Below, piece by piece: positions 1 through 49,597 of a DNA stretch of 64,000 nucleotides. This DNA is from Dromaius novaehollandiae (Eukaryota; Chordata; Aves; Casuariiformes; Dromaiidae). Position 1 is the stretch's first letter. Each line of letters opens with the position of its first letter. Under the pieces are notes generated by a model. The model saw nothing but the letters and a program-made list of their open reading frames with translations, did no database searches and was not told the origin of the DNA. The translations under genes were made by a program, and so were the position numbers. The stretch lies in contig NC_088106.1 of assembly GCF_036370855.1 (NCBI RefSeq), forward strand, positions 28,670,001 through 28,734,000, given 5' to 3'.

Positions 1-612
1 CGGCAGCAGAGGGTGTTTGGGTGTGCAGGGTCGGGTTGGGGGGTGCGAGTGTGCGCGGGCTGTTGTGAAGGGGGCGGCTGTGGGGCTGGGTGCTGTAGCG
101 GGGGCAGCGGAGGGTGTTTGGGTGTACGGGGTTGGGTTGGGGGGTATGGGGTGTTGCACAAGTGTGCGCAGGCTGTTGTGAAGGGGGCGGCTGTGGGGCT
201 AGGTGCTGTAGCGGGGGCAGCAGAGGGTGTTTGGGTGTACGGGGGTCGGGTTGGGGGGTGCAAGTGTGCGTGGGCTGTTGTGAAGGGGGCGGCTGTGGGG
301 CTGGGTGCTGGAGCAGGGGCAGCAGAGGGTATTTGGGTGTACGGGGTCAGGTTGGGGGGTGTGAGTGTGCGAACGCTGTTGTGAAGGGGGCAGCTGTGGG
401 GCTGGGTGCTGGAGCAGGGGCAGCAGAGGGTGTTTGAGTGTACGGGGTCGGGTTGGGGGGTGCGAGTTTGCGCACGCTGTTGTGAAGGGGGCGGCTGTGG
501 GGCTGGGTGCTGGAGCAGGGGCAGCAGAGGGTATTTGGGTGTGCGGGGTCGGGTGGAGGGGTGCGAGTGTGCGCAGGCTGTTGTGAAGGGGGCGGCTGTG
601 GGGCTGGCTGTT

Positions 613-733
613 GCCTACGGCCATACCACCCTGAGAACGCCCGATCTCGTCTGATCTCGGAAGCTAAGCAGGGTCGGGCCCGGTTAGTACTTGGATGGGA
701 GACCGCCTGGGAATACTGGGTGCTGTAGGCTTT
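613..733 (+). rRNA. 5S ribosomal RNA, copy 1
   Basis: The 121-nt segment begins GCCTACGGCC and ends GTAGGCTTT, and holds the internal RNA polymerase III control region (A box, intermediate element, C box) of vertebrate 5S genes. The T run at 731-734 is the terminator. It matches the window consensus except for ACTGGG in place of ACCGGG near the 3' end, a CpG transition shared with copy 4. The product is the 5S RNA of the large ribosomal subunit, bound by TFIIIA and ribosomal protein uL18 (L5). Confidence 0.97.
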
Positions 734-734
734 T

Positions 735-800
735 GCCTTTGGCTGACGCCAGGGGGGGCAGCCGTCCCGTGGCGGGGGTCGTTTTTGGGCGAGTGTGCTG
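735..800 (+). terminator. Conserved 5S 3' flank with a second T run
   Basis: Each 5S gene is followed by the same ~65-bp flank, which is not part of the satellite: it begins GCCTTTGGCTGACGCC and contains a second T run (782-786 here) before the satellite resumes at GTGCTGGAGCGGGGG. Equivalent flanks follow copies 2-6 directly. The gene-end T run ends transcription, and the T5 run about 48 nt further on could act as a fail-safe pol III terminator (inference). Confidence 0.7.
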
Positions 801-1506
801 GAGCGGGGGCAGCGGAGGGTGTTTGGGTGTGCGGGGTCAGGTTGGGGAGTGTGAGTGTGCGCGGGCTGTTGTGAAGGGGGCGGCTGTGGGGCTGGCTGCT
901 GGAGTTGTGGCATCAGAGGGTGTTTGGGTGTGCGGGGTTGGGTTGGGGGGTGCGAGTGTGCGCGGGCTGTTGTGAAGGGGGCGGCTGTGGGGCTGGCTGC
1001 TGGAGTTGTGGCAGCAGAGGGTGTTTGGGTGTACGGGGTCGGGTTGGGGGGTGCGAGTGTGCGCGGGCTGTTGTGAAGGGGGCGGCTGTGGGGCTGGGTG
1101 CTGCAGCAGGGGCAGCAGAGGGTATTTGCGTGTGCGGGGTCGGGTTGGGGGGTGTGAGTGTGCGCGGGCTGTTGTGAAGGGGGCGGCTGTGGGGCTAAGT
1201 GCTGTAGCGGGGGCAGCAGAGGGTGTTTGGGTGTGCGGGGTCAGGTTGGGGAGTGTGAGTGTGCGCGGGCTGTTGTGAAGGGGGCGGCTGTGGGGCTGGC
1301 TGCTGGAGTTGTGGCAGCAGAGGGTGTTTGGGTGTACGGGGTCGGGTTGGGGGGTGCGAGTGTGCGTGGGCTGTTGTGAAGGGGGCGGCTGTGGGGCTGG
1401 GTGCTGGAGCAGGGGCAGCAGAGGGTATTTGGGTGTGCGGGGTCGGGTGGAGGGGTGCGAGTGTGCGCAGGCTGTTGTGAAGGGGGCGGCTGTGGGGCTG
1501 GCTGTT

Positions 1507-1627
1507 GCCTACGGCCATACCACCCTGAGAACGCCCGATCTTGTCTGATCTCGGAAGCTAAGCAGGGTCGGGCCCGGTTAGTACATGGATGGGAGACCGC
1601 CTGGGAATACCGGGTGCTGTAGGCTTT
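1507..1627 (+). rRNA. 5S ribosomal RNA, copy 2
   Basis: Full-length 5S gene with the T-run terminator. It differs from the window consensus at CTTGTC (consensus CTCGTC, a CpG transition) and at position 79 (TACATGG for TACTTGG), which lies at the edge of the C box. The position-79 change is shared only with copy 5, which marks these two as equivalent members of the three-gene block. Confidence 0.96.
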
Positions 1628-2740
1628 TGCCTTTGGCTGACGCCGGGGGGGGCAGCCGTCCCGTGGCGGGGGTCGTTTTTGGGCGAGTGTGCTGGAGCGG
1701 GGGCAGCGGAGGGTGTTTGGGTGTGCGGGGTCAGATTGGGGGGTATGGGGTGTTGCACAAGTGTGTGCGGGCTGTTGTGAAGGGGGCGGCTGTGGGGCTA
1801 GGTGCTGGAGCAGCGGCAGCAGAGGGTGTTTGGGTGTGCAGGGTCGGGTTGGGGGGTGCGAGTGTGCGCACGCTGTTGTTAAGGGGGCGGCTGTGGGGCT
1901 AGGTGCTGTAGCGGGGGCAGCAGAGGGTGTTTGGGTGTGCGGGGTCAGGTTGGGGGGTGTGAGTGTTCGCACGCTGTTGTTAAGGGGGCAGCTGTGGGGC
2001 TGGGTGCTGGAGTTGTGGCAGCAGAGGGTGTTTGGGTGTGCGGGGTCAGGTTGGGGGGTGCGAGTGTGCGCGGGCTGTTGTGAAGGGGGCAGCTGTGGGG
2101 CTGGGTGCTGGAGTTGTGGCAGCAGAGGGTGTTTGGGTGTGCGGGGTCGGGTGGAGGGGTGCGAGTGTGCGCGGGCTGTTGTGAAGGGGGCAGCTGTGGG
2201 GCTGGGTGCTGGAGTTGTGGCAGCAGAGGGTGTTTGGGTGTGCGGGGTTGGGTTGGGGGGTATGGGGTGTTGCACAAGTGTGTGCGGGCTGTTGTGAAGG
2301 GGGCGGCTGTGGGGCTAGGTGCTGGAGCAGCGGCAGCAGAGGGTGTTTGGGTGTGCAGGGTCGGGTTGGGGGGTGCGAGTGTGCGCGGGCTGTTGTGAAG
2401 GGGGCGGCTGTGGGGCTGGGTGCTGTAGCGGGGGCAGCGGAGGGTGTTTGGGTGTACGGGGTTGGGTTGGGGGGTATGGGGTGTTGCACAAGTGTGCGCA
2501 GGCTGTTGTGAAGGGGGCGGCTGTGGGGCTAGGTGCTGTAGCGGGGGCAGCAGAGGGTGTTTGGGTGTACGGGGGTCGGGTTGGGGGATGCAAGTGTGCG
2601 TGGGCTGTTGTGAAGGGGGCGGCTGTGGGGCTGGGTGCTGGAGCAGGGGCAGCAGAGGGTATTTGGGTGTGCGGGGTCGGGTGGAGGGGTGCGAGTGTGC
2701 GCAGGCTGTTGTGAAGGGGGCGGCTGTGGGGCTGGCTGTT

Positions 2741-2861
2741 GCCTACGGCCATACCACCCTGAGAATGCCCGATCTCATCTGATCTTGGAAGCTAAGCAGG
2801 GTCGGGCCCGGTTAGTACTTGGATGGGAGACCGCCCGGGAATACCGGGTGCTGTAGGCTTT
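2741..2861 (+). rRNA. 5S ribosomal RNA, copy 3 (most diverged)
   Basis: Full-length 5S gene with the T-run terminator, but with four differences from the window consensus: AATGCC, CTCATC and CTTGGA (all CpG transitions) and CCCGGG for CCTGGG. CTTGGA is shared with copy 6. This copy is the best candidate for a poorly expressed or silent gene, although nothing in it is truncated. Confidence 0.94.
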
Positions 2862-3557
2862 TGCCTTTGGCTGACGCCAGGCGGGGCAGCCGTCCCGTGG
2901 CGGGGGTCGTTTTTGGGCGAGTGTGCTGGAGCGGGGGCAGCGGAGGGTGTTTGGGTGTGCGGGGTCAGGTTGGGGGGTATGGGGTGTTGCACAAGTGTGC
3001 GCAGGCTGTTGTGAAGGGGGCGGCTGTGGGGCTAGGTGCTGGAGCGGGGGCAGCAGAGGGTGTTTGGGTGTGCGGGGTCAGGTTGGGGAGTGTGAGTGTG
3101 CGCGGGCTGTTGTGAAGGGGGCGGCTGTGGGGCTGGCTGCTGGAGTTGTGGCAGCAGAGGGTGTTTGGGTGTGCGGGGTAGGGTTGGGGGGTATGGGGTG
3201 TTGCACAAGTGTGCGCAGGCTGTTGTGAAGGGGGCGGCTGTGGGGCTGGGTGCTGGAGCAGGGGCAGCAGAGGGTGTTTGGGTGTACGGGGTCAGGTTGG
3301 GGGGTGTGAGTGTGCGAACGCTGTTGTGAAGGGGGCAGCTGTGGGGCTGGGTGCTGGAGCAGGGGCAGCAGAGGGTGTTTGAGTGTACGGGGTCGGGTTG
3401 GGGGGTGCGAGTGTGCGCACGCTGTTGTGAAGGGGGCGGCTGTGGGGCTGGGTGCTGGAGCAGGGGCAGCAGAGGGTATTTGGGTGTGCGGGGTCGGGTG
3501 GAGGGGTGCGAGTGTGCGCAGGCTGTTGTGAAGGGGGCGGCTGTGGGGCTGGCTGTT

Positions 3558-3678
3558 GCCTACGGCCATACCACCCTGAGAACGCCTGATCTCGTCTGAT
3601 CTCGGAAGCTAAGCAGGGTCGGGCCCGGTTAGTACTTGGATGGGAGACCGCCTGGGAATACTGGGTGCTGTAGGCTTT
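3558..3678 (+). rRNA. 5S ribosomal RNA, copy 4
   Basis: Full-length 5S gene. It shares the ACTGGG variant with copy 1 and has its own CpG transition (CCTGAT for CCCGAT) near position 32. Its upstream and downstream spacers are near-duplicates of those of copy 1, offset by 2945 bp. Confidence 0.96.
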
Positions 3679-4754
3679 TGCCTTTGGCTGACGCCAGGGG
3701 GGGCAGCCGTCCCGTGGCGGGGGTCGTTTTTGGGCGAGTGTGCTGGAGCGGGGGCAGCGGAGGGTGTTTGGGTGTGCGGGGTCAGGTTGGGGAGTGTGAG
3801 TGTGCGCGGGCTGTTGTGAAGGGGGCGGCTGTGGGGCTGGCTGCTGGAGTTGTGGCATCAGAGGGTGTTTGGGTGTGCGGGGTTGGGTTGGGGGGTGCGA
3901 GTGTGCGCGGGCTGTTGTGAAGGGGGCGGCTGTGGGGCTGGCTGCTGGAGTTGTGGCAGCAGAGGGTGTTTGGGTGTACGGGGTCGGGTTGGGGGGTGCG
4001 AGTGTGCGCGGGCTGTTGTGAAGGGGGCGGCTGTGGGGCTAGGTGCTGGAGCGGGGGCAGCAGAGGGTGTTTGGGTGTGCGGGGTCGGGTTGGGGAGTGT
4101 GAGTGTGCGCGGGCTGTTGTGAAGGGGGCGGCTGTGGGGCTGGCTGCTGGAGTTGTGGCATCAGAGGGTGTTTGGGTGTGCGGGGTTGGGTTGGGGGGTG
4201 CGAGTGTGCGCGGGCTGTTGTGAAGGGGGCGGCTGTGGGGCTGGCTGCTGGAGTTGTGGCAGCAGAGGGTGTTTGGGTGTACGGGGTCGGGTTGGGGGGT
4301 GCGAGTGTGCGCGGGCTGTTGTGAAGGGGGCGGCTGTGGGGCTGGGTGCTGCAGCAGGGGCAGCAGAGGGTATTTGCGTGTGCGGGGTCGGGTTGGGGGG
4401 TGTGAGTGTGCGCGGGCTGTTGTGAAGGGGGCGGCTGTGGGGCTAAGTGCTGTAGCGGGGGCAGCAGAGGGTGTTTGGGTGTGCGGGGTCAGGTTGGGGA
4501 GTGTGAGTGTGCGCGGGCTGTTGTGAAGGGGGCGGCTGTGGGGCTGGCTGCTGGAGTTGTGGCAGCAGAGGGTGTTTGGGTGTACGGGGTCGGGTTGGGG
4601 GGTGCGAGTGTGCGTGGGCTGTTGTGAAGGGGGCGGCTGTGGGGCTGGGTGCTGGAGCAGGGGCAGCAGAGGGTATTTGGGTGTGCGGGGTCGGGTGGAG
4701 GGGTGCGAGTGTGCGCAGGCTGTTGTGAAGGGGGCGGCTGTGGGGCTGGCTGTT

Positions 4755-4875
4755 GCCTACGGCCATACCACCCTGAGAACGCCCGATCTCGTCTGATCTC
4801 GGAAGCTAAGCAGGGTCGGGCCCGGTTAGTACATGGATGGGAGACCGCCTGGGAATACCGGGTGCTGTAGGCTTT
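4755..4875 (+). rRNA. 5S ribosomal RNA, copy 5
   Basis: Full-length 5S gene. It differs from the window consensus only at position 79 (TACATGG), shared with copy 2. The distance from copy 2 is 3248 bp, 303 bp more than the copy 1 to copy 4 offset, which equals three satellite units. Confidence 0.97.
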
Positions 4876-5773
4876 TGCCTTTGGCTGACGCCGGGGGGGG
4901 CAGCCGTCCCGTGGCGGGGGTCGTTTTTGGGCGAGTGTGCTGGAGCGGGGGCAGCGGAGGGTGTTTGGGTGTGCGGGGTCAGATTGGGGGGTATGGGGTG
5001 TTGCACAAGTGTGTGCGGGCTGTTGTGAAGGGGGCGGCTGTGGGGCTAGGTGCTGTAGCGGGGGCAGCAGAGGGTGTTTGGGTGTGCGGGGTCAGGTTGG
5101 GGGGTGCGAGTGTGCGCGGGCTGTTGTGAAGGGGGCAGCTGTGGGGCTGGGTGCTGGAGTTGTGGCAGCAGAGGGTGTTTGGGTGTACGGGGTTGGGTTG
5201 GGGGGTATGGGGTGTTGCACAAGTGTGCGCAGGCTGTTGTGAAGGGGGCGGCTGTGGGGCTAGGTGCTGTAGCGGGGGCAGCAGAGGGTGTTTGGGTGTA
5301 CGGGGTCAGGTTGGGGGGTGTGAGTGTTCGCACGCTGTTGTTAAGGGGGCAGCTGTGGGGCTGGGGGCTGGAGCAGGGGCAGCAGAGGGTGTTTGGGTGT
5401 ACGGGGTCGGGTTGGGGGGTGCAAGTGTGCGCGGGCTGTTGTGAAGGGGGCAGCTGTGGGGCTGGGTGCTGGAACAGGGGCAGCAGAGGGTATTTGGGTG
5501 TGCGGGGTCGGGTTGGGGGGTGCGAGTGTGCGCGGGCTGTTGTGAAGGGGGCGGCTGTGGGGCTGGGTGCTGGAGCAGGGGCAGCAGAGGGTATTTGGGT
5601 GTGCGGGGTCGGGTGGAGGGGTGCGAGTGTGCGCAGGCTGTTGTGAAGGGGGCGGCTGTGGGGCTAGGTGCTGGAGCGGGGGCAGCAGAGGGTGTTTGGG
5701 TGTGCGGGGTCGGGTTGGGGGGTGCGAGTGTGCGCAGGCTGTTGTGAAGGGGGCGGCTGTGGGGCTGGCTGTT

Positions 5774-5894
5774 GCCTACGGCCATACCACCCTGAGAACG
5801 CCCGATCTCGTCTGATCTTGGAAGCTAAGCAGGGTCGGGCCCGGTTAGTACTTGGATGGGAGACCGCCTGGGAATACCGGGTGCTGTAGGCTTT
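5774..5894 (+). rRNA. 5S ribosomal RNA, copy 6 (last in the array)
   Basis: Full-length 5S gene with a single CpG transition (CTTGGA), shared with copy 3. It is the last 5S gene before the array edge and points toward the 3' end of AIRE, which is read on the opposite strand about 0.9 kb away. Confidence 0.97.
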
Positions 5895-6345
5895 TGCCTT
5901 TGGCTGACGCCAGGGGGGGCAGCCGTCCCGTGGCGGGGGTCGTTTTTGGGCGAGTGTGCTGGAGCGGGGGCAGCGGAGGGTGTTTGGGTGTGCGGGGTCA
6001 GGTTGGGGGGTACGGGGTGTTGCACAAGTGTGTGCGGGCTGTTGTGAAGGGGGCGGCTGTGGGGCTGGGTGCTGTAGCGGGGGCAGCAGAGGGTGTTTGG
6101 GTGTGCAGGGTGAGGTTGGGGAGTGCGAGTGTGCGCACGCTGTTGTTAAGGGGGCGGCTGTGGGGCTGTCTGCTGGAGTTGTGGCAGCAGAGGGTGTTTG
6201 GGTGTACGGGGTCGGGTGGAGGGGTATAGGATGGTGCACAAGTGTGTGCGGGCTGTTGTGAAGGGGGCTGTGGTGCAGCGTGCTGTGTGTCGTTAGTCTT
6301 GTCAAGGGGCGGGTGTGCTGGAGCGGGGGCAGCGGAGGGTGTTTG

Positions 6346-25540: not shown

Positions 25541-28500
25541 ATGGCGACACGCTGGGATGCTCTCTACAGGCGGTACCGGCTGCACCAGTACCCGATGCTC
25601 ACGGAGCTGCAGCAGGAGGGTAAGGCCTTGCCGTGGCACCACCCAGAAGAAGGCTCTGGTGCCCGGGGCTCACGCTTGCCTCGAGGAGAGAACTTGCCCA
25701 CGCTGAGCTCCAGGCTGGGGGAAGGAGCTGGAGCTGCTTGGCTGGCAGTGTCCAGGCTGTGTGTGCAGGGGCTGAACATACAGAGGTGTGGGCATCTCTT
25801 GAGCCTGTTTCCAGAAGGTAAAGGTGTCCTGCAGCTCCTGCTGGGCTGCAGAGAGACTCCTTGGGAGCCCGATGATAGGCATGAAGCCTTTGAATTTTCA
25901 TCCACTGCAATTTCTGTCTCTGCTGGGATCCCAGTCACTGCCTCTGGGCTCTTCCCACTGCAACTTCTTGCACCTCCCAACTGGCAGCATAGCTCTGAAC
26001 TCCAAATACCTTCCCATTTTGGGTATCAGCCACAGGATCCCCTTGGCCAAAACACATCTCAGGTCTCTGTTTCAGCTCCAGACCGTGACTGGGCTCTCAA
26101 GAAAACTGGCAGTTGGAAGTCCAAGACCCAATGCTGCACCTCTGTCTGGAGGGCTGGGGAGGTGATTACCCCGCCACGTCAGTAGTCAGCGGTGTGAGCT
26201 CACTGATGCAGAGCATGACCTGCCTCTCGCTTGCTTTCCAGATGTTGTCGGTATCTGGAACGGTGTGGCTGAGTACATTCAACGACACCTACTCCTGAAC
26301 AGGGTAGGGCTTGCACCCTGTTCCTCCCCACCAGCCCTGATGGCTTCAGCAGGTCCTTGGCCACTGAGTGCGATGGATCGGGTTTTCCATCTGAAAAAGT
26401 ACTGTGATTTCTTTTTTCTTTTTGTTCTGTTTTTAGGGGGTGAAAATCAATGGACTCGGGACATTTTTCGTTGTTAGACAATATTTACCGACAAGGAACA
26501 ATGACCTTCTTCCTGTTCAGAGACCTGTATTTAATCTATCCACGACTGTTGCAGTGGTTCACCAGATCAGATACACTAACAGAGACATTCCTGGTAAGGA
26601 GTGATGAAAACCCTGGCTTCCCCCTGGGCCACCTCAGGGCTGGGTGCTAGGAGCTGCTCCTAGGTGATGGTTACAAGCACAGATTTCCTTCCTAACATCC
26701 GTGAACAATTTCGGCTCATCCAAACCAAGCAGCCCACCAAACAGCAGTGTCTAAGAAGGACCCTTTCAGAATAAGTTTTTAATAACACTCCTTAAAATTA
26801 AACTCCCTCTCTTTGAAAGGCTTTAATGAGTAGCTCTGTGCCACTCATGCCTGGTCGGTGTTGTGGTGACTGCTGGCTAATGGCAATTTAAAGCTGATCC
26901 ATATTTATGTCACATCGGGCCATCCGCAGGGAAACACCAGAGATCAGACTGGCTTTTATAGACTCAGTCTAGTTCAAAGTGGGCTGGCATCAGTTGGAGA
27001 CAGCCTCAAAACAGAGCTGGAGGCAATAGCTGGTACGAAACACCCCTGGTGATCAAGTTAGCGCTGGTTTCTAGTCGATGCTGCCAATCCTGCAGCTGTA
27101 GTGTGGCACTGATGATGCCAGCAGTGCAGCAACAAATTGCCTGTGAGCCTGGAGCTGCCCCAATTTCCCGTTAGTCCGCTCTGTGGTGGGTTAAGTGACT
27201 CCTGCTCTCTTGGGGTGCCCCAGGGGACGTGATGATTCTGCCGGTGTACCACCACAAGATGCGCTTGGAGCCCTTCTTTCGCAAGAGGACCGTGGAGCGG
27301 TGCATGGAGGAGACCCTGATCTGTCTGTCTCGCCTTCTTGAATGCGCATGCGACGTGGACTTTGTTTTCAGAGACGTTGGTGTTCTTGTTATCCGAGAAA
27401 ACAGAGTGCGGATGAGATTTTACAAAGAGTTCCTTGAAACTCTAGATCAGACTGGGACCCTGGCAGAAGCTCTTCTCCGTGTAAGTTTTTTGGTTTCCTA
27501 CTACTTCTCTGCATTTGAAATCCTTAGAAATGCTCTCACAGCGTTTGTGAACTGGTCTCCCTTGGCCGGGTGTGACCTGTGCAGACCTGTGGGCTACAAC
27601 ACTGTCTGTATAGAGCTCTTCCCACTGCTCAGTGTGTCAGTGACGCTCGGAAGAGCCACCCTGGGTCAAACCTGGCTAATCCACCGCCTTCCCCTGCACT
27701 GGCCTCGGAGGGTTTCTCCATTAGCTCTCCTGGCTGACCATCTTGCTTCTTGCCTTTGCAAAAAGCCTGGCAGCTTATTACCCACTATCAACTCCTTGCT
27801 GTGCAGCACCTCCTCGTTAGAACGAGGCTTTGGTGCTGATGAAAAAGTCCTGAGTTAAAGGGTTGCAGAGGGGCCACTCCATCCCTGAGCAGCGGAAAGG
27901 CTGCCTGCTGCTGTGAGCAGAAAGATTACGTCCTTGGCACCATCTCACATGTCGCTGTCACCGTTGCAGGATCCAGTGACAAAGGATTCGGTCATAATGG
28001 ACAGGAAAGCCATTGTTCCTCAGAGCGATGACAGCGATGCAGGTATCTTCATGTTTCCAAGGTGAGTATGTTTGCTTTTGTCACCTGAGGCTGACCCATT
28101 GAACAGACTCTTAGTCCCTGTGTGGTGGCGATGGGGATGTTCCCTGTGTGCTGAGGTTGGAGGATGTGTGGATGGAGTATGGAGAGCATCTCTCAGAAGG
28201 TGGATCAAAGACCAGATCCATACAAGTCATCCATTTGTGACATTTCCCTATCTTCTGTGAGACCTGAGTAAATGATGGGGGCGACTTCTCAAAGCGGAAG
28301 CCTCTGTCCATGAGGCTCTGCAGAGCTCTGTCAAAACGATCTTGGAAAAGTAGAGGAAAAAAGACAAGAGTCTGTTCCCTGTGTGCACTCGTACTAAAAG
28401 ACGACAGATGATCCCCAAAGAGGATTTGTGTTAGGGTAAATTTTCTCCCCAAAAGGCTGGCAATGCGCTGGAACAGACTGACGGAGACTCCTCGGCCCTG

Positions 28501-35933: not shown

Positions 35934-37169
35934 TCATTTAATGGAAGAATCCAGAATCTCTTGGTAATCTTGTCTTCCTAAATTCTTCCAGGTCAATTTA
36001 TGACACGCAAGGAAAAAAACACTAACCAAAATAACTGCTCCACCGAGAAGATCATAAGCACTTGGAAAGATTCGCAGCACAATGAGCTGCAGGACCATGG
36101 CGATGACTATCTCCAAGTGCTGTACAGTGCTGACCAGAGCGGGGTGGAACTTGCTGAGGGCGTAGTAGACCCCCAGGAAGGCAGCTGTGGAGCACAGGCA
36201 GATGGCAAGGAGATAGCTCCAGGTTTCTCCATCCAGTGGGACGATTGGCTCTTGAAGGAAAAACATGGTGGACGCTCCCCACGCTGTTCCCGTCCAACTA
36301 AAGGTGAACAGTGCCGTCCACATGCTGATATTATCTTTGATCGACCTGTAGACTATCATGGAGAGCGCAGTGGTCAAACCTGCCATCACGGTCATGGTAT
36401 AGCCAAAAGCTTCCTTCCAGGTGCTCAGCAAAGAGTTTTCCTCACTCACAATGTTGGGGATCATGACCAGACAAACACCAAACACGCTGCCAACTACAGT
36501 AACTATGTCTATGTAGGCCATTCCTTCATCTAGTAGTAAAAAAGCCAAAATGGCACTGAACACCGTAGTGGTAGCCCTCCACATGATGGTCCCATTACTG
36601 GGGGGAACTATAGAGAAGGCAGTATAAGCGCAGGTGATGGAGATAACGTTGCAGACGCCATAGAAGAAGAGCCGCAGTCTGTACCCTTTGGGGCCGAAGG
36701 GAGGCTCATGGTAATAACACACGACTGTAACAGACAGCACCTGTAAGACTGAACGGATGAAAATTAACTCTAGGGATGGCACTTTGGAACGATCGGAAAT
36801 TAATCTTGTTATTAGAGCCACACATCCGTGAGCCACAGCAGATCCAAAAAGGACTACCCAAGTTTTTCTCGACTGCAGGATACTTCCTTCAGGAAAATTT
36901 TGGAACTGCCCAGTGTCATTGCATTTTGGCAGTTGTGCTGACTGAAGCTGGGTGTCTATTGTACCAAAAAAGGTCCTTTCTCTCTTTTTCCCATCATTCA
37001 GTAATCTTTTCTTAGGATTCTCCTCCATAAATACTCCAGTATCTTCATTACCATCCTCATCTCCCTCTTCTCCTGGTTGGGGATAATGAGAAGTATATTT
37101 CACTGTTACTGTGTTGGGATGGATTTTCACTCGTTTTTTGACTGGGTATTTTTGAGAAGACATATCCAT
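35934..37169 (-). CDS. SLC35G2: Solute carrier family 35 member G2 (SLC35G2, TMEM22)
   Basis: Multi-pass membrane protein of the drug/metabolite transporter superfamily with two EamA repeats; its substrate is not established. The 411-aa frame is intact (human 412) and collinear with the mammalian protein, from [20 protein letters not shown] to [13 protein letters not shown] cytosolic N-terminal segment of about 100 residues is followed by about ten hydrophobic helices, starting at [14 protein letters not shown] and including [20 protein letters not shown] and [20 protein letters not shown]. The coding region lies in one exon, as in mammals. A splice acceptor (TTTCTTAAG, exon start 37191) lies 22 bp upstream of the ATG, so the first exon is non-coding and probably in the CpG island at 43 kb. 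Confidence 0.97.
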
Positions 37170-47900: not shown

Positions 47901-49597
47901 TTCAAGAGAATACCCAGTAACTTAGGTCCTTTCAGTAATGTTAAAGGGAACTATACTTCTGTTTTTGATAATTTTCCCAAAACAAGATTTTGATAATTTT
48001 CCCAAAACAAGATTTTGATAATTTTCCCAAAACAAGATTTTGATAATTTTCCCAAAACAAGATTTTGATAATTTTCCCAAAACAAGATTTTGATAATTTT
48101 CCCAAAACAAGATTTTATCATTTGTGTCTCTGCAGGCATTTGAGTATTTAGGAAAATGCCTTTCAGTAATAAGAGTATGCTTGACAAAACAGGATGCCTC
48201 GGACAATAGATTCATCAGGCTGTCATTACTAAGCCCAGCAAGCTGTAGGGCATGTATCCTATTTTGAACCCATGGATTCAAAATAAAATGGATAAATTTT
48301 CAACTCTGCTTTCATATTAGGCAATCTCAAAGCCATCTTTATTTTGGAAGATAATGTTCGTTTATAAATATGGGTAATGCCATGTTGAAATGATAGGAAT
48401 ACCTTTTTTTCTCCTCCTTTGAGCATTCAGGTCTCCCAGCTTGGAGATGTGGAACTCTTTATGTATCCAAAAATGAAGATTACCTGCTACCCACAAACTA
48501 TATATATATATGCCAAACACTCATTCCATTCTTATGGTATTAATACTGCCCAGGATGAATCTGTATTCTCAGTCTTAAAACATGCTGAAAGGCTGTACAG
48601 CATCATTTGGTGGCACAGGCATTTCGGCCACAGTTGCCAGCAATATTAGACTCAAGGGTTTAATGTGGAAGTGTATTCTATATTCCAGTCACTCAGTTAA
48701 TAGTCATTTCTTACAGAATTAAGAGCAAGAGTTGAATTCTTAAGCTGGTCCTCCCTCAACTGAGAGACAGGTTGTTCCTGGTGGTTACCAAAAGTAATGT
48801 TTTACTAGAAAGCAGCATGAGGCCACGTCCTGCCGACTGTGTTCCTTGCTGTGCAGTTCACCAGAATAAGTGCTATTTATTCTGTAAATAAATTGAATGA
48901 ATCTATATTCTTAACTGTCCACACTGCAGACTTACATTGGCAGGTTAGCCGAGTGAAAATGGTCAGTATTGACAGATTGTGCAGCTCATAGGAAAAAAAA
49001 AAAATATTTCTCTGTAGAGTTACATAGGGACAGACTTGTGTTTCAGAAATGTTTCTAAATGTCAAACATTTTTCAACAAAATAATAAATGAAAATTCATT
49101 TTGGATAATTTTTTTTATACTAGAGAATAGCACGTGGCATTTTTGAAATAGAAAAATCAAATAATAAGCAAAGAATCTGTTTGCCCTCACCCACATGAGG
49201 GTTTCTGTCTCCTTTTTAGGTCTAGAATCCCATAGAACTCCATGAAGATGCCAATAAGTCATTGTTTATAAGTGGAAAATAAAACTTCATTTGCAAATGG
49301 GCAATGAATTCCATCTTAAAGGGCTGGTAAATGTGCCAGTACATTCCTTTTGCCTTTCTTTTCATTTAGCAGTAGCTAATTTGGCTGCCAAGAGACTTTC
49401 AGCTTTCATGTTGAATAGGTTGGTTCAAGTTGCACCATACTATTGTTGATCCCGTTCTGTGAAATGATTTGGCAGGCATCACTCTCATCTTTCTGTTGGT
49501 GGTTTCTATTATAGCATGAGAGAAATATGCAAAGCAAAACGTCAGTTTATTTGTTGACAATCTGTTATGTTGCAAAGCTGTAATGACTTTTTAAGTA
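45000..49597 (+). other. Probable first intron of the + strand gene, part 1
   Basis: AT-rich DNA without recognisable exons. Short frames occur on both strands but none has domain features. The 25-bp tandem repeat at 47967-48116 is the only clear structure. Confidence 0.4.
47967..48116. repeat. Six perfect copies of a 25-bp unit
   Basis: The unit (GATAATTTTCCCAAAACAAG plus ATTTT) is repeated six times without a single difference. The open minus-strand frame across it follows from the lack of stops in the repeat and is not a gene. Confidence 0.97.

Follow-up and report, generated by a model that had tools for sequence, protein, structure and literature searches.

The 64,000-nucleotide window of the emu (Dromaius novaehollandiae) genome examined here (C9:28670001-28734000 in a 1.468-Gb assembly) contains the right-hand edge of a single large 5S ribosomal DNA (rDNA) array, which runs on leftward beyond the window. 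Its genes are embedded in a tandem satellite, and the organisation of the array is probably (with a probability of about three in four) the joint product of satellite-mediated copying of multi-gene blocks, a particular history of block duplication, loss and gain within the window, and short gene conversion. In the window and the 200 kb to its left, which we also analysed, the array comprises at least 85 full genes across at least 114 kb, all on the + strand, with the first satellite anchor at C9:28561297 and the last at C9:28676334; the gene count is a lower bound, since the left stretch contains 7500 N bases. The 85 gene-sized gaps between satellite anchors measure 288 bp in 82 cases and 287 bp in three, so that all genes share one phase of the 101-bp satellite, each lying within an insert of 187 bp whose site in the monomer is always the same. 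As in a classical single-gene tandem array under concerted evolution, the gene sequences are nearly identical (46 of the 85 equal the consensus, 39 differ from it by 1-4 bases, and there are 20 distinct sequences), but the uniform repeat unit length of such an array is absent: the 84 gene-to-gene spacings take 54 distinct values between 704 and 5870 bp, some of them spanning N stretches or truncated copies.

The spacers are ordered in blocks of several genes. When the best in-register match of each of the 85 genes was taken as its partner and compared with 2000 shuffles of gene order, this partner was found two to five genes away in 51 of the 85 genes (shuffles: mean 7.7, maximum 20) and next door in only six (mean 2.0, maximum 9), a distribution of lags that rules out single-gene duplication as the main mode of growth. 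As expected of higher-order repeats, multi-unit blocks are more alike at the block period than their neighbours are, although the period is not constant along the array and takes local values of 1, 2, 3, 4 and 5 genes. The largest block pair joins genes 38-42 to genes 43-47 (5299 bp, 2 mismatches), followed by genes 20-24 and 24-28 (5052 bp, 8 mismatches), 44-47 and 46-49 (3798 bp, 6 mismatches) and 62-63 and 65-66 (2788 bp, 11 mismatches); together, 29 selected block pairs of at least 800 bp cover 68.5% of the array. These data support amplification in multi-gene blocks whose period changes from place to place. An earlier note on this DNA, made from the sequence of the window, had proposed an array built of multi-gene units; the array-wide lags bear this out, with the three-gene period that it described for the window giving way to locally varying ones.

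Six 5S genes lie in the window, each 119 bp long, on the + strand and matching model positions 1-120 of Rfam RF00001 (gathering score 38) with 105.0-110.5 bits. Each ends in a run of four T, and transcription into 5S rRNA by RNA polymerase III is predicted. The array edge and its genes, with their variants, are as follows in window positions:

1..6345, + strand: right-hand end of the array, made of a 101-bp satellite (with variants of 113 and 102 bp) that carries six 5S genes, from monomer and anchor analysis
613..731, + strand: 5S copy 1 (array gene 80), C105T, RF00001 110.5 bits
1507..1625, + strand: 5S copy 2 (array gene 81), C36T and T79A, 105.0 bits
2741..2859, + strand: 5S copy 3 (array gene 82), C26T, G37A, C46T and T96C, 106.9 bits
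3558..3676, + strand: 5S copy 4 (array gene 83), C30T and C105T, duplicate of copy 1, 107.7 bits
4755..4873, + strand: 5S copy 5 (array gene 84), T79A, duplicate of copy 2, 109.3 bits
5774..5892, + strand: 5S copy 6 (array gene 85, the last found), C46T, no duplicate of copy 3, 109.6 bits

With each monomer type written as a letter and the genes placed in brackets, positions 1-6345 read abcde[f]ghijkl[m]nopqrs abc[t]ukvde[f]ghwxhijkl[m]yqbzABC[D]EFG. Ungapped comparison reveals three long matches in this string: 1-340 with 2331-2670 (offset 2330, 1 mismatch), 273-1095 with 3218-4040 (offset 2945, 3 mismatches in 823 bp) and 840-1807 with 4088-5055 (offset 3248, 1 mismatch in 968 bp). The last two are the copy 1 to 4 and copy 2 to 5 offsets of the earlier note, which are exact, as is their difference of 303 bp, or three 101-bp units; gapped BLAST identities of the long matches at these offsets are 94.2% and 93.6%, respectively. 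The longest ungapped stretch with at most three mismatches reaches 1013 bp; when monomer order and gene cassettes were shuffled 150 times, it averaged 371 bp and never exceeded 498 bp, so that the duplication exceeds what chance would produce. It involves the following segments:

1..1807, + strand: block one, matching block two at offsets 2330, 2945 and 3248 (ungapped comparison and unit string)
2331..5055, + strand: block two, with genes 3, 4 and 5, partner of block one (ungapped comparison and unit string)
2654..3268, + strand: segment of 615 bp carrying copy 3 plus three satellite units ([t]ukv), in block two and not in block one (breakpoints +/- ~68 bp)
3785..4390, + strand: three satellite units gained in tandem by block two (ungapped comparison and unit string)

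Block two thus equals block one plus [t]ukv (615 bp, copy 3) and three further units (303 bp). Array gene 76 shows the same order, c-[t]-u-k-v-d (with identities of 99.5% on the left side, 98.8% over u-k-v and 99.5% over v-d), while the c-d junction of block one has no other match above 97.5% among its best eight hits; block one has therefore most likely lost its equivalent of copy 3. Conversely, within block two, 3785-4040 is identical to 4088-4343 over 256 bp (offset 303), and the w-x junction of this step (3961-4162) has no other array match above 96.5% among its best eight hits, so that block two most likely gained three units, as the earlier note had it. The reading that best fits the two blocks is (lost, 1, 2) and (3, 4, 5), not (1, 2, 3) and (4, 5, 6).

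The latter arrangement, in which copies 1-2-3 were duplicated as 4-5-6, was the one originally put forward, and the variants cited for it are exact: C105T (ACTGGG) in copies 1 and 4, T79A (TACATGG) in copies 2 and 5, and C46T (CTTGGA) in copies 3 and 6. It also draws on the matching offsets and on satellite units q and b, which stand in the same order in the spacers before copies 3 and 6. Its three-gene period and two of its pairs, 1/4 and 2/5, hold; the third pair does not. C46T is the only variant common to copies 3 and 6, and it is a CpG transition found in 8 of the 85 array genes. At the 3-to-6 offset of 3033, the ungapped self-comparison of the window contains no near-identical diagonal, and the gapped BLAST match that starts there is 88.8% identical, with 104 mismatches and 53 gap bases across 1398 alignment columns. 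Over 300 bp on each side, copy 3 shows 117 in-register mismatches to copy 6, 108 to copy 5 and 119 to copy 2, and is thus no closer to copy 6 than to copy 5 or copy 2.

The closest kin of copy 3 lie upstream, outside the window: gene 76 (916 bp, 3 mismatches) and gene 79 (838 bp, 2 mismatches), with gene 74 also related. Gene 74 carries T96C, gene 76 adds C26T and G37A, and genes 79 and 82 add C46T, a succession that reads as a stepwise gain of variants along the line 74 to 76 to 79/82. Copy 6, by contrast, finds its best partner in gene 15 (513 bp, 1 mismatch), which lacks C46T, and is also identical to genes 22 (372 bp) and 13 (362 bp), which both carry it; genes 13, 15 and 22 are near the opposite end of the array, 90-101 kb from copy 6. 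The spacer in front of copy 6 also has a match in that region:

5056..5773, + strand: spacer before copy 6, of which 5586-5773 are 100% identical to C9:28576903 onward, just upstream of gene 15 (sequence match)

Phylogenetic trees were built from positions -500 to +620 around 18 of the 85 genes (wider tree) and from -137 to +229 for 22 of the 85 (core tree), with genes chosen after inspection of the partner table and with recombination ignored. A grouping of 1 with 4, 2 with 5 and 3 with 6 had been anticipated. Pairs 1+4 and 2+5 each received support of 100/99 in the wider tree, and in the core tree 2+5 was supported at 95/96 and 1+4 at only 75/0. The 3+6 clade was not rejected by the approximately unbiased (AU) test among the six window copies alone (p-AU 0.158), but was rejected once the array relatives were added (p-AU 0.0125 in the wider tree and 0.002 in the core tree), where copy 6 grouped with genes 13 and 15 at 100/98 in the core tree. 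Two results of the wider tree speak against a simple copy-3 clade: 3+74+76+79 is supported at 79/87 only, and gene 79 is not the closest sister of copy 3 (p-AU 0.11 for that pair). Flanks, partner table and trees with array relatives together rule out copies 3 and 6 as a duplicate pair, and a duplication of 1-2-3 as 4-5-6 appears very improbable.

Repeated structures of this kind may also arise during assembly, if two haplotypes or collapsed repeats are placed end to end and create a false duplication. The identity of about 99.7% between blocks could correspond to allelic difference, an array such as this one is a hard case for assemblers, and our analysis takes the assembly as its only source. 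Nevertheless, the two window blocks differ by indels of 615 and 303 bp, and elsewhere in the array there are nested pairs of blocks whose periods vary widely, which a single false join would not yield; an artefact of this type seems to us unlikely.

In 15 disjoint block pairs, genes contain 19 differences in 2975 bp (0.64%) and the rest 44 in 26451 bp (0.17%); a gene mask placed at random 20000 times captured a mean of 6.8 differences (p = 0.0001 for the observed 19). At least one gene difference is present in nine of the 15 pairs, and there are two block pairs whose differences fall exclusively within genes (both in the 5299-bp pair and all four in a 2695-bp pair). Two random genes of the array differ on average by 1.04%, so that the divergence of genes within near-identical blocks exceeds half of that between random genes. 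This excess is confined to block pairs, since array-wide diversity is 1.04% in the genes and reaches 1.64% in the near upstream and 1.36% in the near downstream flanks. Gene differences recur at sites 64 (4), 77 (4) and 96 (3), and all four allele combinations occur in each of the three pairings of these sites. The simplest biological reading, suggested by this pattern, is that short gene conversion acts on the genes separately from the blocks.

Alternatively, with the block duplications left standing, the gene excess could stem from mis-polishing or from faster mutation in the genes (through CpG decay or transcription-linked damage). Genes are the most repeated sequence of the array and hence the likeliest to be mis-polished, and 9 of their 14 variable sites are in CpG. 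Three sites argue against faster mutation, as site 64 is a G-to-C transversion, site 77 lies outside CpG and T96C creates a CpG; furthermore, the recurrent sites occur in all combinations, and random mutation would seldom strike the same three sites in separate blocks. This argument bears on mutation only and carries no weight against mis-polishing. We regard this alternative as plausible, though short of probable. A full separation into two uncoupled processes, with satellite-mediated block duplication ordering the spacers and short conversion tracts reshuffling a few gene alleles array-wide, stands just below an even chance.

Several points weigh against the joint history of block copying, window rearrangement and conversion. 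Assembly or polishing errors are possible, and mis-polished near-identical genes alone could raise the gene differences. The block pairs were selected for near-identity, many gene variants are CpG transitions that possibly reflect repeated mutation, and in the larger set of 29 overlapping pairs, with T96C counted as CpG, the non-CpG gene excess alone (14/5236 versus 66/43030) lacks significance (p = 0.07). The best partner lies more than five genes away in 28 of the 85 genes, so local duplication can explain only part of the pattern. The wider tree does not attach copy 6 firmly to any gene. Array gene 79, the match to copy 3 expected upstream of block one, is 5 kb away and is followed by a different spacer, and N stretches near the window mean that the ancestral three-gene block is seen incompletely.

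If this joint history is nonetheless correct, unequal recombination between out-of-register satellite monomers would copy or remove stretches of zero to several genes and leave higher-order repeats that mostly span two to five genes and whose period differs from one part of the array to another. In the window, an ancestral three-gene block (a copy-3 type, a copy-1/4 type and a copy-2/5 type) would have been duplicated in tandem; a deletion of 615 bp may then have taken the first gene out of block one, and three monomers been added to block two. Short gene-conversion tracts would meanwhile transfer variants between 5S genes while the flanking spacer stayed put, which may account for the decoupling of genes and spacers. 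Block identities, array-wide lags, the common satellite phase and both indels are direct observations; unequal crossing-over, the ancestral block with its sequence of events, and conversion behind the decoupling are inferred.

The window genes may also reflect their position at the end of the array. All six depart from the consensus of the 85 full genes (chance 0.007 under random draw), and six of their eight variable sites are CpG transitions (26, 30, 36, 37, 46 and 105), with 79 and 96 being non-CpG. Variant genes number 13 among the last 14 and 26 among the other 71 (Fisher p = 0.00017, the cut at 14 having been picked after inspection of the table), without any such excess at the left edge (3 variants in the first 10 genes). 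Homogenisation is expected to be weaker at array edges, and the excess at the right end fits this expectation.

Other details concern the array as a whole. Array gene 1 (C9:28561581, the leftmost) and copy 1 (window 613) have C105T and 362 identical bp in common, although they are ~109 kb apart. Three truncated 5S copies, on the + strand like the full genes (C9:28658140, 28659554 and 28667250), all end after base 72 with the same satellite junction (GGT|GCTGGAG), which reads as a single truncation event copied later; the truncation presumably takes away the 3' part of the internal promoter. A fourth partial 5S match ends where an N stretch begins. At the array end (window 6190-6345) there is a degenerate monomer, in which ~6270-6310 may, by eye, be a decayed 5S 3' end. 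Across window 1-6345, the satellite has a G over C skew of 0.55 on the + strand, the RNA-like strand of the 5S genes, and this skew could favour R-loops or quadruplexes and hence recombination. All 47 scored 5S matches lie in this array, the first scan having returned 39930 candidates, and loci elsewhere in the genome are possible. A plasmid collection contained no match to window 600-1500.

Beyond the array, two of the 15 open reading frames of the window tested against Pfam had a match, and a short tandem repeat was also present:

27229-27855, + strand: open reading frame near the array that matches the CCDC81 HU domain (Pfam PF18289, E 8e-18)
35934-37169, - strand: one uninterrupted reading frame of 411 aa that matches EamA transporters (Pfam E 4.5e-22), which we guess to be perhaps SLC35G2-like
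47963-48123: 25-bp AT-rich repeat array, 6.5 copies, 98%

Repeats with comparable features exist in other systems. In alpha-satellite higher-order repeats, blocks of diverged monomers are copied as a unit by unequal exchange and the edges are less homogenised; those monomers have no genes, whereas in the present array some monomers carry an inserted 5S gene. In Xenopus oocyte 5S DNA, spacer length varies with subrepeat number and truncated pseudogenes occur, with several genes per repeat in X. borealis; subrepeat-dependent spacer length and truncated copies are thus shared with the present array, but the Xenopus subrepeats are short and AT-rich. Another bird with a 5S array is the chicken (reported by Daniels and Delany in 2003). 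The chicken array is on chromosome 9. Among the titles and abstract openings listed from one open library, we found no sequence-level description of a bird 5S array, and a similar survey on higher-order repeats, conversion and unequal crossing-over yielded a paper on pikes and mostly satellite papers. As far as the consulted part of that paper goes, pike (Esox) 5S arrays contain higher-order repeats, larger units that each consist of a block of basic ones, and, as here, arrays were self-compared on long molecules and variant make-up differs between arrays (PMC5437419). In the same part, the pike spacers are mostly 95-116 bp long (94% of units), unlike those described here, and the four groups distinguished are continuous blocks, blocks with unique DNA, inverted blocks and dispersed copies; repeats of two to five genes that change locally within a satellite are not among them (PMC5437419). 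The 5S cluster of Caenorhabditis elegans N2, in the part of the report consulted, resembles the present array in having unit variants in reproducible order over at least 167 non-uniform units, and differs by its near-fixed unit length of 942-984 bp; that part mentions no satellite spacer (PMC8961926). Ordered unit variants and higher-order 5S structure have been described already, in the consulted parts of these reports on C. elegans (PMC8961926) and pikes (PMC5437419). What is different here is the satellite spacer with genes inserted at one phase, the changing block period and the decoupling of genes from spacers.

The uniformity of ribosomal RNA genes is usually inferred from pooled copies, whereas in this case the succession of copies can be followed through most of one array, which makes the size of the copied unit (zero to five genes) and the scale of exchange within genes directly measurable. 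Because gene variants recur on unrelated backgrounds, having one in common is a poor guide to the ancestry of blocks, as the pairing of copies 3 and 6 illustrates.

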